From Arcticibacter eurypsychrophilus (lineage in GTDB: Bacteria; Bacteroidota; Bacteroidia; Sphingobacteriales; Sphingobacteriaceae), in assembly GCF_001730525.1 (NCBI RefSeq), contig NZ_MDFN01000002.1:62001-126000 (forward strand): a stretch of 64,000 nt of DNA, written 5' to 3'. The position numbers and the translations under genes are program-made. Positions 5,252-54,751 of the stretch are shown here, piece after piece. Below the pieces are notes generated by a model. That model had not been told where the DNA came from. It saw only the letters and a program-made list of their open reading frames with translations, and did no database searches. Numbering within the stretch: the stretch's first letter is position 1; each line of letters begins with the position of its first letter.

Positions 5252-6265
5252 ATGAAGTTTATAAAGGTTTTAATACTGATTTGCGTTATTGTTTCTTTGA
5301 TCATCTTCGTCTATGCCATAGATTATAGATACGTCATCTCTTCTATACAAAAAATTGGATTTAAGTTTATTTATCTAATTGCCATTACAGGTATTGCCTA
5401 TGTTTTGGGTACCTTAAGTTGGAAGTACTGTATGGCTGAGCAGGCTGTAGATATTTCGCTTGTCAAATTATTTTTGATTCGGCATGTGGGTGAAACGGCA
5501 AGTTTACTGAACCCTGCAGGCATATTGGTTGGAGAAACGGTGAAAGCTCATCTTTTACAAGAGCATGGAATTGAAAAAAAAGCGATTCTCTCTTCCATAT
5601 TGGTTTCCAGGGTTATTATGATTGTAACACAGCTCATTTTATTTTCCTTTGCACTCAGCGTTCTTCTATTTAAAAGTTCAACCATTATAAGCTCGCCCAT
5701 TCATTTAGAATTTACATTTACAACTATTGCTATTCTTTTCTTAATTGTCGTTTCTTTATTTGTTTTTAGAAGAAGGTTAAAGATTTTAATGCTGAGAACC
5801 AGGTTTGGTTTAACAGTATATGAGAGAACAATAAAAATCAGATTAAAAATCTTAGAGCTTAAGCAAGATATTGCAAATCTTTTTGAAGATAACAAAAAGA
5901 CTCTTGTACTGGCAATATTTTTTGCGCTGTTACACTGGATTGCAGGTTGTATCGAATTCTATCTTATACTGCAATTTTTAGGTGTTAACATCCATATCGT
6001 ACAAGCATTGCTAGTTGATATGGGTGTCATATTTTTCAAAGCCGCAGGGGTCTTTATTCCAGGACAGGTAGGAATTGAAGAATTTGGCAACAAGATCATG
6101 CTCGCTGCAGTAGGAATAACTGGAGTTGAAATTTGGACTACGGCATCTATACTAAGACGTTCAAGACAACTTACCTGGATAGGGATAGGCTTTATTATCT
6201 ATTGGTTTATGTATCGAATCAGGATTTCAAACTTAAAAACACTGAATGGAAATTCTGTTTATTAG
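5252..6265 (+). CDS. Flippase-like integral membrane protein (LPG synthase TM / UPF0104 family)
   Basis: 337 residues, almost entirely hydrophobic, with about seven to eight predicted membrane helices. Family marks are PAGILVGETVKAHLL near residue 89, which follows a conserved Glu-rich turn, and PGQVGIEEFG near residue 270. Proteins with this domain include the lipid-flipping half of MprF and many uncharacterised flippases. It lies between two GT4 genes (9 bp after the first, overlapping the second by 20 bp), so an attractive inference is that it handles a glycosylated lipid built by them. It lacks the lysyltransferase half of MprF, so it should not aminoacylate lipid. Confidence 0.83.
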   Translation: MKFIKVLILICVIVSLIIFVYAIDYRYVISSIQKIGFKFIYLIAITGIAYVLGTLSWKYCMAEQAVDISLVKLFLIRHVGETASLLNPAGILVGETVKAHLLQEHGIEKKAILSSILVSRVIMIVTQLILFSFALSVLLFKSSTIISSPIHLEFTFTTIAILFLIVVSLFVFRRRLKILMLRTRFGLTVYERTIKIRLKILELKQDIANLFEDNKKTLVLAIFFALLHWIAGCIEFYLILQFLGVNIHIVQALLVDMGVIFFKAAGVFIPGQVGIEEFGNKIMLAAVGITGVEIWTTASILRRSRQLTWIGIGFIIYWFMYRIRISNLKTLNGNSVY

Positions 6266-7424
6266 TCACAAATATCCACCCGCTTTAGGAGGGATGGAGA
6301 AACAGAGCTATGAACTCATTAATGGATTAAAGGCCGATCTTCAAGTGCATAGTATCGTTTATGAAGGAAAGGAAAGCAGGCTGAGTTTCTTTTTAAAGCT
6401 TAACCGGAGGATTCTCCTACTCTGTAAAGAAAATCCAGGTATTTCAATCATACATTTTAACGATGCTTTAATAGGTGCCTGGAGTTTAACACATAAGGGA
6501 TATCCTCATCTTAAAAGAACGATGACAGTGCATGGCCTGGATATAGTTTTCCCTTCCCGAATATATCAACATCTTATACTTCCGAAATTTAACCGCTTTG
6601 ATTTAATTTTTGCAGTAAGCAGGGCTACTGCTGAAGCTTGTATTTTAAGAGGTATTTCAAAAGACAAAGTAGTTGTTATTAATAATGGAGTTGATAACAG
6701 CATCATGCCTTCGCTTTCGAGATCTGATGTACTTATAATGCTTAAAACTAAGTATCACCTGGATTGTACAGGTAAAAGAATACTGGTGGCAATGGGAAGA
6801 CCTGTTAAACGCAAAGGGTTTTCATGGTTTATACAAAATGTACTTCCAAAGTTGAATGAAGACCTTATACTTTTACTTATTGGACCTTCTGTTGACGAAA
6901 AGGCTTGTTTTAAAAATTATCTATTTCAACATACACCGTCAATTATCAGAAGCCCAATAGAGCTCTTTCTAGGCTATCCATCGGACAGACAAGCGATTAA
7001 CATACTCATTGAAAATCCTCGTATTTCAGATAAAGTTAAAAATTTAGGGAAGTTACCATTTTCAGACATCATTCATATTTTAGGGGTTGCAGAAGCCTTT
7101 ATTATGCCCAATATCTATATTAAAGGCGATATGGAAGGATTTGGTCTTGTCGGGTTGGAAGCATCAATGTGTGGTACTAAAGTAATCGCTTCAGGCATAG
7201 AGGGGATTACTGATGCTGTTAAACAAGGGGAAAATGGCATTCTTTTACCAACTAAGGATGCAAATGCATGGATTGGTGCTTTGAATCATATTGTAAAAGA
7301 ACCGGAAGTGGCTGAAAGAATGAGCCGTGATGACATTATAAATTTCACAAAACAGCAATTTAACTGGAAGAAAATGACGGATAATTACCTTTCATACTTC
7401 AATAAACTTAATAAAGAAAAATAG
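6246..7424 (+). CDS. Glycosyltransferase, family GT4
   Basis: A second GT-B enzyme, 392 residues, distinct from the first. It opens with HKYPPALGGMEKQSYEL, a glycine-rich acceptor loop, then VHGLD, a VSRAT turn and VINNGVD at the domain junction. The donor half holds MGRPVKRKGFSWF, LLIGPS and the EX7E motif in EGFGLVGLEAS, followed by GTKVIASG. It begins inside the end of the flippase-like gene (20-bp overlap), so the three are surely co-transcribed. Likely acts at the cytoplasmic face of the inner membrane; donor and acceptor are unknown. Confidence 0.9.
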   Translation: MEILFISHKYPPALGGMEKQSYELINGLKADLQVHSIVYEGKESRLSFFLKLNRRILLLCKENPGISIIHFNDALIGAWSLTHKGYPHLKRTMTVHGLDIVFPSRIYQHLILPKFNRFDLIFAVSRATAEACILRGISKDKVVVINNGVDNSIMPSLSRSDVLIMLKTKYHLDCTGKRILVAMGRPVKRKGFSWFIQNVLPKLNEDLILLLIGPSVDEKACFKNYLFQHTPSIIRSPIELFLGYPSDRQAINILIENPRISDKVKNLGKLPFSDIIHILGVAEAFIMPNIYIKGDMEGFGLVGLEASMCGTKVIASGIEGITDAVKQGENGILLPTKDANAWIGALNHIVKEPEVAERMSRDDIINFTKQQFNWKKMTDNYLSYFNKLNKEK

Positions 7425-13526: not shown

Positions 13527-14044
13527 ACCGGAATATATCCATGATTTTGCAGCATATTGCTGTTATAGCCTTGGCTTTGTCGTTTTATTACATTGATGAA
13601 TATGATCTGATTGAACCGGAGAAACATCATATGATATTTCTTACAGTAGCTACGCTTAAAACCATCTATTTCCTAACACATAGTTTCAAAAAGGTTAAGG
13701 ACCTTTCAGTTGTAAATAACTTTTCCTACTTCATGAAAGTCATGTCCATTAACATATCCCTGGTGATATTATCCTATGCTGCAGACTATTTTACGCTGTT
13801 CCAAATATATCCATCCGCATTCACAGGAATCACCACTCCTGGAGATCCTCTAATAACGTTTTGCGATTTTTTTTATTTTAGTGTGACTATTTTTTCAACT
13901 ACAGGATTAGGCGATATCCTTCCTTATTCCCTATCTGCAAAGTATCTGGTATGTCTGGAAGTTATCCTGGCCTTTATCACCATAATTTTTCTCCTGTCTA
14001 ATTTTGCAAACCTGAAAAGCAGTCATAAGGAACAAGAAGATTAA
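13523..14044 (+). CDS. Two-pore-helix ion channel-like membrane protein
   Basis: 173 residues with about four hydrophobic segments (roughly residues 8-24, 34-52, 70-92 and 141-163). Between the last two is a pore-loop sequence, FYFSVTIFSTTGLGDILP, that matches the potassium-channel pattern (T-x-G-Y-G-D) with Leu in place of the filter Tyr/Phe, so selectivity may be relaxed. No cytoplasmic RCK domain is attached. It overlaps the acetyltransferase gene by 4 bp. Most likely an inner-membrane cation channel; confidence in the ion is low. Confidence 0.75.
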   Translation: MNRNISMILQHIAVIALALSFYYIDEYDLIEPEKHHMIFLTVATLKTIYFLTHSFKKVKDLSVVNNFSYFMKVMSINISLVILSYAADYFTLFQIYPSAFTGITTPGDPLITFCDFFYFSVTIFSTTGLGDILPYSLSAKYLVCLEVILAFITIIFLLSNFANLKSSHKEQED

Positions 14045-51143: not shown

Positions 51144-52745
51144 ATGAAAGCAACATACATCGAATATCACGAAACAAATAGTTTTTCATCTACCGCTCTG
51201 AGCTATCTGGCTGGGGATTCTAAAATCCAGCCTTTCATTTCTCATTTCCCGACTATAGCTAATTTCGGTCATCTAATTGAGTCCCGACGGGTTACTACAG
51301 ACAGAAAAGTGCTTAGAGATGTACTGACTAGGCAGTACTCAGAAACATTAGATTCTGGCTTGCCATCTCAGTTGAAGGTAAATGAAAACATTGAGCTTCT
51401 TTTAAGAGACACTACTTATACGATTACTACGGGACACCAATTGAACATCTTCACCGGTCCCCTCTACTTTATATATAAAATAGTAACGACAATAAACCTT
51501 TCCAGGGAATTGAAGCAGGCTTATCCGGATAAGGATTTCGTACCCGTATATTGGATGGCTACAGAGGACCATGACTTTGCAGAAATCAACCATGTTAAGC
51601 TGTTTGGTAAAAACATCAATTGGGAACTAAATGCGAGTGGTGCGACAGGCCGTTTAAACCCAGAAACCATTGCTGAAGCGTTAAAGGCTTATCAGAGTAC
51701 ATTGGGGATCTCAAAGAATTCTGAAAGACTGACCGCTATCATTGAAGAGGCTTATTTGCATCATGATACGCTAGCATCTGCTACCCGCTACTTAGTTAAT
51801 GCCCTCTTTTCTAGCTACGGGTTAGTTATCGTTGATGCAGATGAGAAGGACTTTAAAGCGCAGTTTACGTCTGTTATTGAAGATGATATTTTTAACAAAG
51901 TAAGTTCAGCAGCAATTACGAAAGCGACTAACAAGCTTAAAGAAGCAGGTTTTGATCCTCAGGTTAATAGCAGAGATATCAACTTCTTTTACATGAAGGA
52001 TAATTTGCGAGAACGTTTGGTGGAGGAAAAGGGTGTTTATTACCTATTAAATTCTGAGATTCGTTTCAATGCGGAAGAACTGAGAAATGAAATCAGGGAT
52101 TATCCGGAACGCTTTAGTCCTAATGTAGTAATGCGACCTCTTTATCAGGAAATCATACTTCCTAATCTGGCTTACATAGGTGGTGGATCTGAACTGGTAT
52201 ATTGGTTGCAATTGGAGCAATGTTTTGATGCGTTTAAGGTGGATTTCCCTATTTTGCTTCTTCGCAACTCGGCTATGATTACGGACGAGTCTTTTGGTAG
52301 TAAACTATGCCGGCTTCATATCCCTGCTAAAGATATATTCAAGAGTACAGAAATCTTACAGAAAGAATGGGTATTAAGAAATTCGCAGAATGTCTTGAAT
52401 TTATCGGATGAACGAAAAGATTTTCAGTCTGTGTTTGAGAAAATTAAGCTTAGAGCTTATAAAATTGATCCGACATTGGCCCCAAGTACGGAAGCAGTAA
52501 AAGCAAGATTGTATCATACGCTTGAAAATCTGGAGAAGAAATTCCTAAAGGGAGAGAAAAAGAATCATGAAGGTGCACTTTCTCAAATAGAGGGCCTGCG
52601 CACTAAATACTTTCCGGGGAACAGTTTACAGGAAAGGTCTGAGAATTTCGGTTTATTCTTTGTTAAATATGGAGATGATTTTATAGCAGAACTGGTCAAG
52701 CGTTTCAAACCTCTTGATTTTAAATTCACTATTATTGAGCCTTAA
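51144..52745 (+). CDS. bshC: Bacillithiol biosynthesis cysteine-adding enzyme
   Basis: Last step of bacillithiol synthesis: joins cysteine to GlcN-malate. 533 residues. Rossmann-like core with TITTGHQLNIFTGPLYFIYK near residue 92 and MATEDHDFAEINHVKLF near residue 140, the latter holding the conserved His-Asp; a coiled coil follows near 440-500. The last 25 bp of the gene recur in almost identical form at 53264-53288, just upstream of the next gene. Confidence 0.96.
   Translation: MKATYIEYHETNSFSSTALSYLAGDSKIQPFISHFPTIANFGHLIESRRVTTDRKVLRDVLTRQYSETLDSGLPSQLKVNENIELLLRDTTYTITTGHQLNIFTGPLYFIYKIVTTINLSRELKQAYPDKDFVPVYWMATEDHDFAEINHVKLFGKNINWELNASGATGRLNPETIAEALKAYQSTLGISKNSERLTAIIEEAYLHHDTLASATRYLVNALFSSYGLVIVDADEKDFKAQFTSVIEDDIFNKVSSAAITKATNKLKEAGFDPQVNSRDINFFYMKDNLRERLVEEKGVYYLLNSEIRFNAEELRNEIRDYPERFSPNVVMRPLYQEIILPNLAYIGGGSELVYWLQLEQCFDAFKVDFPILLLRNSAMITDESFGSKLCRLHIPAKDIFKSTEILQKEWVLRNSQNVLNLSDERKDFQSVFEKIKLRAYKIDPTLAPSTEAVKARLYHTLENLEKKFLKGEKKNHEGALSQIEGLRTKYFPGNSLQERSENFGLFFVKYGDDFIAELVKRFKPLDFKFTIIEP
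52721..52745 (+). repeat. Left copy of a 25-bp direct repeat (3' end of bshC)
   Basis: Includes the last codons and stop of bshC. The right copy at 53264-53288 differs at one position (G to A). Confidence 0.9.
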
Positions 52746-52818
52746 TTAGCTTCAAAATAGTATTGGATTTTAACTAAATCTAATGCTGCTCTCTTTACTG
52801 CACTTAGTGTGGATGTCA

Positions 52819-53069
52819 TTCTTAAATGTTGTTTAATTTATCATTATTGACTTAATAAGCTTTTAAAAATTCTACTTATTAGATTTAGCCTGACTCTCGT
52901 TCTTAAGAGTTGATTTTAAATTTACCAGTATAAGATTAGCTAGCTTCGAATTATTCAATGTGATTAGATTTATGCTGGTTCTTATTCTTAAGAGTTGATT
53001 TCAAAATTTACCAGTATAAAGATTAGCTAGCTTAAGAATATTCAATAAGATCAGATTTAGCATTTATTA
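52819..53069 (+). repeat. Three tandem imperfect 81-85 bp units in the bshC-dehydrogenase gap
   Basis: Unit starts at 52819, 52900 and 52985, each beginning TTCTTAA. Units two and three are similar throughout (TTGATTT, TTTACCAGTATAA, GATTAGCTAGCTT, ATTCAAT, AGATTTA); unit one is weaker. No ORF longer than about 17 codons. Part of the 545-bp gene-free stretch 52746-53290. Confidence 0.75.
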
Positions 53070-53168
53070 TATTTCTAAAAAATTGATTCGGTATTCATTA
53101 CAAGAACCATTTTTAGTAAACTTGGTTACTTTTGATATAAGCTTTTATAAGCCTATTGATATAAAATT

Positions 53169-53206
53169 AAAAAGAGGCTGTTTCAACCTATGAGGCAGCT
53201 TTTTTA
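53169..53206 (+). terminator. Terminator-like hairpin in the gap after bshC
   Basis: AAAAAGAGGCTG near 53169-53180 opposes GAGGCAGCTTTTTT near 53192-53205, imperfectly, with a T-run. A second stem GGACTCTT/AAGAGTCC (53215-53222 and 53237-53244) follows. Confidence 0.5.
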
Positions 53207-53263
53207 GTATCTAGGGACTCTTCCCTATTTTAAAAGAAGAGTCCTTCTTTAAATGTTAATTAT

Positions 53264-53288
53264 TAAATTCACTATTATTGAACCTTAA
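53264..53288 (+). repeat. Right copy of the bshC 3'-end repeat
   Basis: 24 of 25 bases match 52721-52745; ends 2 bp before the ATG of the dehydrogenase gene at 53291. Confidence 0.9.
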
Positions 53289-53290
53289 GT

Positions 53291-54379
53291 ATGAGTTCCT
53301 TCATTTTTCAGGAAAACAAATTAAGAGCCTTTACAGAATCTGTATTTCATGCAATGGGCTGCAGTCGGGAACATGCTGTTCTTGCTGCTGATGTATTAAT
53401 AACCTCTGACCTGCGAGGAATCGATTCGCATGGAGTAGCAAGACTAAGCGGTTATATCCGTCTCTGGAAAAAAAAACGGATTAATCCTAATCCAAATATC
53501 AGAATTATTCACGAAACAGCAAGTACTGCAACTGTAGATGGTGACGGCGGATTAGGGTTAATTGTAGCTCCATTCGCAATGAAACTGGCTATGGAAAAAG
53601 CAGAGAAATATGGCTCGGGTTGGGTTTCTGTACGAAATTCCAATCATTTTGGTATAGCTGGTTATCATGCGATGCAGGCTGTGAGTAAAGATATGATTGG
53701 CATTGCGATGACTAATGCGAGTCCGCTGGTTGCTCCTACATTTACGACAGAACGTTTACTGGGTACAAATCCGATGTGTTACGCATTCCCTGCAGGTAAA
53801 TATCCCCCGGTAGTCGTGGATATGGCAACCGCAACAGCGGCCAATGGAAAGTTGGAAATAGCACAGCGGGAAGGTAAACATATTCCTGAAGGTTGGGTTC
53901 AAACCAACACAGGATTGCCAACTTCTGATGCACATGCACTTAAAACTGGAGGGTCACTATTACCTTTAGGAAGTGATCGCGATCATGGCAGTCACAAAGG
54001 TTTTGGATTAAGTGCAACGGTGGATATTCTTACTTCTATTTTATCTGGTGCTAATTATGGTCCATGGGTCCCTCCTTTTGTTGCTTTTTTAGATCCACTA
54101 CCCGATTTGCCAGGTGAAGGAATTGGTCATTTCCATGGCGCAATGCGTATTGATGGCTTCAGACCTACTGCCGATTTTAAATCACACATGGATCGCTGGA
54201 TTGAACGTTTTAAAGCCGCAGTTCCAATAGATCCAAATCAACCGGTAATTATACCAGGAGAACCAGAAGCAGAAGCAGAAAAGATCCGACGTGTTGAAGG
54301 GATTCCTTTATCTGAACCCGTAGTGAAAGACTTGGAAGCTTTAGCTGAATTGCTTGGAATAGAGAAATTGCAAAAGTAA
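53291..54379 (+). CDS. Malate/L-lactate dehydrogenase family (Ldh2/Mdh2-type) oxidoreductase
   Basis: NAD(P)-dependent dehydrogenase of the non-Rossmann malate/lactate/ureidoglycolate family. LRGIDSHGVARLSGYI near residue 44 carries the catalytic His, then WVSVRNSNHFGIAGYHA near residue 115 with the second His, and GTNPMCYAFPAG, HKGFGLSATVDIL near residue 236. 362 residues is typical. Substrate undetermined among malate, lactate, ureidoglycolate and related 2-hydroxy acids. Promoter not clear: the right copy of the bshC repeat sits directly in front. Confidence 0.92.
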   Translation: MSSFIFQENKLRAFTESVFHAMGCSREHAVLAADVLITSDLRGIDSHGVARLSGYIRLWKKKRINPNPNIRIIHETASTATVDGDGGLGLIVAPFAMKLAMEKAEKYGSGWVSVRNSNHFGIAGYHAMQAVSKDMIGIAMTNASPLVAPTFTTERLLGTNPMCYAFPAGKYPPVVVDMATATAANGKLEIAQREGKHIPEGWVQTNTGLPTSDAHALKTGGSLLPLGSDRDHGSHKGFGLSATVDILTSILSGANYGPWVPPFVAFLDPLPDLPGEGIGHFHGAMRIDGFRPTADFKSHMDRWIERFKAAVPIDPNQPVIIPGEPEAEAEKIRRVEGIPLSEPVVKDLEALAELLGIEKLQK

Positions 54380-54706: not shown

Positions 54707-54751
54707 ACAAGAAAGGGGTTGTTTTGAAAATCAAAACAACCCCTTTCTTGT
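54707..54751. terminator. 20-bp perfect hairpin, terminator-like
   Basis: Left arm 54707-54726 pairs perfectly with 54732-54751 (arm begins ACAAGAAAGGGGTTG), loop about 5 bases. It is 328 bp after the dehydrogenase stop and 132 bp beyond the lepB stop on the minus strand, so it can serve both convergent genes. Confidence 0.75.

Follow-up and report, generated by a model that had tools for sequence, protein, structure and literature searches.

A diverged tandem array, probably grown from the 3' end of bshC, lies between bshC and a dehydrogenase gene

In the 64,000-nucleotide stretch of DNA analysed here (the window), bshC and the dehydrogenase gene that follows it, ldh, are held about 545 bases apart by inserted DNA at a junction where, in four of five genus relatives, the two genes nearly touch. 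We read the insertion as a minisatellite-type tandem array that would have arisen from the bshC 3' end in an ancestor shared by the genome of the window (G000) and a sister species (G004), and we put the probability of this reading, with its age and its origin from the bshC end taken jointly, at roughly three in four. An earlier reading of the window, made from the letters alone (the sequence-only reading), had proposed that this DNA was gained, either by site-specific integration or by duplication, perhaps as a small element of its own. The gain has stood, as has duplication as one of the two options named, and the proposals of integration and of an independent element have not; the array is an ordinary class of small genome change and not a recognisable mobile element.

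The locus contains a direct repeat of the bshC 3' end. A 25-bp copy of 52721-52745 had been described at 53264-53288, with one mismatch and two bases ahead of the ldh ATG (53291); we recovered both the repeat and its distance from the start codon as described, and the likeness extends to 27 of 29 identical positions (93%; Table 1). This is the sole pair of 25-mers in the 64-kb window with at least 24/25 identity at a spacing of 30-1000 bp, and five random sequences generated from a first-order model of the window contained no such pair. The 518 bp between the copies (52746-53263) do appear to be gene-free, with zero ORFs of at least 60 aa, and the names given to the two genes agree with their Pfam matches. 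The two hairpins that had been noted ahead of ldh are also present.

Table 1. Features of the bshC/ldh junction, in positions of the window
Feature	Position	Strand	Description	Basis
bshC	51144..52745	+	intact, 533 aa, bacillithiol biosynthesis BshC	ORF; Pfam PF10079 and PF24850
Putative first unit (unit 0)	52714..52827	+	last 32 nt of bshC and the following 82 nt; exceeds the internal units by about 28 nt	model R2 (52714-52825)
Direct repeat, left copy	52720..52748	+	bshC 3' end and stop codon	repeat search
Internal unit 1	52828..52908	+		alignment and shuffle tests; unit model
Internal unit 2	52909..52993	+		repeat search; TRF; shuffle tests; unit model
Internal unit 3	52994..53080	+		repeat search; TRF; shuffle tests; unit model
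Stretch without detectable repeat unit	53081..53170	+		shuffle test
Hairpin 1	53171..53205	+	15 pairs, T-run at end, terminator-like	folding (z -3.8); minus-strand terminator-like site at 53189-53175
Hairpin 2	53213..53246	+	11 pairs, terminator-like	folding (z -2.6); A-U to U-A in G004 keeps the pair
Direct repeat, right copy	53263..53291	+	last base is the A of the ldh start codon	repeat search; single copy in four relatives without the insertion
ldh (Ldh_2, malate/L-lactate dehydrogenase-type)	53291..54379	+	362 aa	ORF; Pfam PF02615

We compared G000 (4.69 Mb in 93 contigs) with five other genomes of the genus (G001-G005). In four of them (G001, G002, G003 and G005), bshC and ldh lie 2-8 bp apart, with 2 bp between the bshC stop and the ldh ATG in G002, G003 and G005 and 8 bp in G001, and the matches from the bshC side and from the ldh side overlap by 27-29 bases, which amounts to a single copy of the repeat. 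Because four of the five relatives thus have near-touching genes and one repeat copy, we take about 543 bp to have been gained between bshC and ldh, and the insertion to be both real and derived. The sequence-only reading had predicted that relatives without the inserted DNA would be found, and had named a gap shared by all relatives, without the right copy, as the outcome that would speak against it; the prediction was borne out, and the gap is absent from every relative except G004.

G004 is the closest relative by DNA match (88.4% identity in bshC, 93.3% in ldh) and has the gain in common with G000, both junctions there corresponding to those of the window. Its array is split by contig ends: contig C90 stops inside the repeats, and contig C94 opens with about 200 bp of multi-copy sequence (C94:1-204, L108). 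A search gave seven further matches to it in G004, two of which are short, on C104, C110, C79 (two), C118 and C145 (two), and no match in the five other genomes of the genus. We read this opening sequence, which at several of these places adjoins what looks like transposase-type coding sequence, as the end of an insertion-sequence-like stretch within the G004 array.

About 335 of the 518 bp in the window consist of a diverged tandem array with units of 81-87 bp. TRF reports 2.1 copies with a period of 85-87 bp at 52878-53061, and a model of the unit raises the count to three internal units, preceded by a first one that overlaps the end of bshC; the "three tandem repeats" of the sequence-only reading were therefore right in substance. 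As in minisatellites, the units are longer than 20 bp and stand head to tail, both by TRF and by the model, and their number differs between relatives: four of them have none, and G000 has three internal units. In G004 three internal units are followed by the beginning of a further one and, past the insertion-sequence-like stretch, by half a unit, the total being inexact as the array lies on two contigs. The units are 83% alike in the two longest blocks, with a mean column identity of 75% over six units, and the threshold given in the available part of a survey of variable segments is 90% (PMC2884548), so the array is a decayed one that falls below the definition of that survey.

The last unit ends at 53080, and in the 182 bp from there to the right copy of the direct repeat no unit is detectable. 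A fourth unit at 53081-53168 was considered and is not supported, as 369 of 1000 shuffles score as well; a decayed unit within 53081-53170 is possible but likewise not supported. When we ran TRF over 438 kb of the 4.69-Mb genome (the window and 19 further stretches, a 9% sample), only one other array with a period of at least 30 was found, consisting of two copies of a different, 98-bp unit with 99% identity (L134, on contig C6 of G000, 13715-13912).

The first bases of the units delimited by TRF, TTGATTTTAAATTTACCA, resemble the end of bshC, TTGATTTTAAATTCACTA, and we therefore tested whether the array starts inside bshC. Since the answer would be circular with a profile of all eight copies (R1), we built a second model (R2) that was restricted to the six internal units, of which G000 and G004 supplied three each. 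In whole-genome searches that scored the best 150 of 3851 and of 4044 first-look candidates, the best match to R2 outside its training units was the bshC 3' end, both in G000 (E 0.0017, the next match having E 0.032) and in G004 (E 2.2e-4, followed by the half unit on C94 at E 4.6e-4), and no other copy of the array unit stood out in G000. R2 also matched 52714-52825 at E 3.8e-5 in a search of 106 kb.

We also searched with an HMM of the first 34 columns alone, the part that would correspond to bshC coding sequence. Its top non-training place in 438 kb of G000 was 52714-52737 (E 6.4), and in 25.5 kb from the four relatives without the insertion its top three matches were the bshC 3' ends of G003, G005 and G001 (E 0.75, 1.3 and 20, respectively); the bshC end of G002 was not among the 12 matches listed, and the full-length internal HMM did not set the bshC ends of the relatives apart from chance. 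The alignment of units 1 and 2 to 52700-52790, which comprises the bshC end and the DNA just after it, scored higher than 1000 of 1000 shuffles, and for unit 3 the alignment was equalled by 12 of 1000. When the bshC coding part alone was compared with the whole segment, its score was reached by 7 of 1000 shuffles in one scoring and by 27 of 1000 in the other, and also by 3 of 312 other segments of the window. The coding-part evidence is thus weak taken singly, and the case rests on place and register. Collectively, the matches of R2 and of the 34-column HMM to bshC 3' ends argue that the array starts inside bshC, the end of which would be its first unit, and that it multiplied from this 3' end together with about 50 bp; that the units derive from the end of bshC is, on these comparisons, well supported but not beyond doubt. 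The spacer of about 50 bp resembles neither the start of ldh nor anything else found, and the idea that it is a copy of the ldh start was dropped, with 956, 959 and 925 of 1000 shuffles as good in G000, G004 and G005, respectively.

We also surveyed bshC loci of other genomes, taking the best 80 of 580 that were confirmed (one of these, L021, may come from the G003 genome itself). In 38 of the 80, bshC is followed by an ldh homologue, with a gap, extrapolated from the alignment, of at most 11 bp in 21 and of at least 35 bp in 17; the remaining 42 have no ldh match within the examined stretch. None of the 17 wide gaps (one partly masked) contains a comparable copy of the bshC end, and the best two, L069 and L071, are marginal: over their 17 and 11 bases, respectively, 5 and 2 of 200 shuffles did as well. 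In Pedobacter segetis (L038), a 325-aa ORF lies between bshC and ldh (5604-6581), so we take the junction to have acquired a gene elsewhere. A 178-aa ORF found between the two genes in L061 (5782-6318) looks like a small alpha/beta hydrolase.

The outer geometry of the window's junction, with bshC intact, its 3' end directly repeated and the site single-copy in relatives, is also what would be expected had a tyrosine-recombinase element entered the bshC 3' end, left the 25-bp copies as attL and attR, and later been deleted down to 518 bp. A scar of this kind, however, has no need of internal repeats carrying the same bshC-end sequence, and here each internal unit opens, in register, with a probable diverged copy of the bshC 3' end. 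Nor is there a recombinase or other element gene between the repeats, given that the segment lacks any ORF of at least 60 aa, and the tyrosine-recombinase family PF00589, the type covered by our search, has no match on the 200,829-bp contig of the window (C22), its six matches in G000 (five of them over the cut-off) all lying on other contigs. A search of phage and plasmid sequences with the segment gave no match at E 1e-5, and the wide-gap loci of the survey, with nothing comparable to the repeated bshC end, also speak against integration. We therefore consider a scar improbable.

The segment could also be taken for a non-autonomous, MITE-like transposable element with a long target-site duplication, as it is non-coding, about 0.5 kb in length and flanked by a direct repeat. 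We found no inverted repeat pair in 52600-53400 that could provide terminal inverted repeats, and dispersed copies are also lacking: searches with the 518-bp segment returned no second full copy in G000 or G004, only pieces of about 40 bp or less, and a family search of 151 genomes, with four candidates scored per genome, gave nothing longer than about 56 bp outside G000 and G004. A MITE-like origin is accordingly very hard to credit, and the same observations, with those on genes, PF00589, phages and plasmids, leave the small independent element of the sequence-only reading unsupported.

Each of the two hairpins at the right end of the segment combines a stable stem-loop with a T-run, as judged by folding and sequence, and both are probably transcription terminators; a pattern scan reported a single terminator-like site, on the minus strand. 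Four stem pairs differ between G000 and G004 and all stay paired, in what is a small sample of two sequences: in hairpin 1 two G-U pairs are changed to A-U, and in hairpin 2 one G-U is changed to G-C and one A-U to U-A. Hairpins of the first type recur in the family, as 16 of the 151 genomes searched (G000 and the genus included, four candidates scored per genome) had a match to the segment and 17 of the 22 matches outside the G000/G004 locus fall on hairpin 1. The hairpin motif is present at six of eight family places inspected, the pattern failing to match in L162 and L163, and a stricter hairpin 1 pattern found only the site of Table 1 in G000. We also note a long palindrome at 54709-54749 of the window (two 19-base arms around 3 bases), which lies between the convergent ldh and signal peptidase genes and is probably a two-way terminator.

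A scan for sigma-70 promoters found none, with a model that does not cover Bacteroidetes promoters, for which the available part of PMC6847099 gives the elements TTTG/TANNTTTG. Two plus-strand candidates for such elements are present, both weak; one of them, TTTA-21-TATTATTG, has its -7 box in the right copy, and this TATTATTG box resembles the Bacteroidetes -7 element TAnnTTTG. The right copy might conceivably have been retained as the promoter and translation start region of ldh, with the array having a role in splitting a closely packed gene pair, a proposal that we regard as a long shot; if it were true, repetition of a gene end would be a route to operon splitting and to new promoters. 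The TTC and ACT codons of the right copy, considered as a sign that it arose after the internal units, do not decide the point, since G002 also has them; rows for the right copy that were out of register in the junction comparison were left out of account.

Aligned with G004, the segment differs at 51 of 278 sites in its left half and at 18 of 219 in its right half, as against 63 of 184 fourfold-degenerate sites in bshC (34%) and 37 of 175 in ldh (21%). Divergence is therefore lower in both halves than at the fourfold sites of the adjacent genes (Fisher p = 0.0002 for left versus bshC and 0.0004 for right versus ldh), and the neutral divergence that the sequence-only reading had named as a second outcome counting against it was not observed. 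The lower divergence may reflect constraint, although alignment bias in AT-rich non-coding DNA flatters identity and the two genes differ in rate. The slower change of the right half is the less telling as a sign of constraint because ldh itself differs less from G004 than bshC does.

These differences, together with the folding of the whole segment, which is better than 100 of 100 shuffles (z -3.3) chiefly through the hairpins, and with the preservation of pairs by the stem changes, would fit a functional non-coding unit under selection, such as a small RNA or a leader controlling ldh, and a unit of this kind would be compatible with an array origin. We nevertheless think it unlikely: all 11 Rfam matches are below the gathering score, the repeat units have no common structure (0 pairs), the insertion-sequence-like stretch lies within the G004 array, the sigma-70 scan, within its limits for Bacteroidetes, yielded no promoter, and the slower change may itself be a product of alignment bias.

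The preferred reading, a tandem array grown from the bshC 3' end, would require that about 50 bp of DNA with no identifiable source came to adjoin a duplicated bshC end, and that replication slippage or unequal recombination between the direct copies then multiplied the unit of bshC end plus spacer. The internal copies would subsequently have decayed, with the first copy kept by coding. The right copy would be the last copy; its function upstream of ldh may have preserved it, or conversion may have renewed it, or it may stem from a later event. Also weighing against the array, 53081-53262 is without a demonstrated repeat origin, and the right copy matches bshC at 24/25, much better than the internal units do, which a single-step array does not predict. 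As the two hairpins, both probable terminators, now stand between the genes, the closely packed pair has likely been split, with ldh expressed on its own; the array would thus probably have split an operon.

The locus illustrates how a tandem array can begin at the 3' end of a gene and separate genes that almost touch in the remaining genus relatives, because junctions without the array, the longer array of the sister genome, and internal copies that have decayed to differing degrees can be compared side by side. The att scars of tyrosine-recombinase elements likewise have a duplicated gene 3' end, an intact gene and a site that is single-copy in relatives, and all of these are shared by the bshC/ldh array; it differs from them in that neither a recombinase nor an element gene was found and that the repeated sequence recurs inside the segment. 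Direct repetition of the 3' end of an intact gene therefore need not mark an integration site, and it is advisable to check for inner copies. Intrinsic terminators consist of a stem-loop followed by a T-rich run, an arrangement that the two stem-loops between bshC and ldh share. The closest parallel is with the small variable segments with short direct repeats that, according to the available part of PMC2884548, are frequent in bacterial species and are partly ascribed to replication slippage, those flanked by repeats making up 10-18% of such segments. As described there, these segments resemble the insertion studied here in being short, intergenic and present in only some relatives, in containing tandem units of more than 20 bp, and in having a direct repeat of less than 30 bp at their flanks; the bshC/ldh array differs in that its units are less alike than the 90% asked for in that survey, that the comparison is between species, and that its first unit would lie inside the 3' end of a gene.
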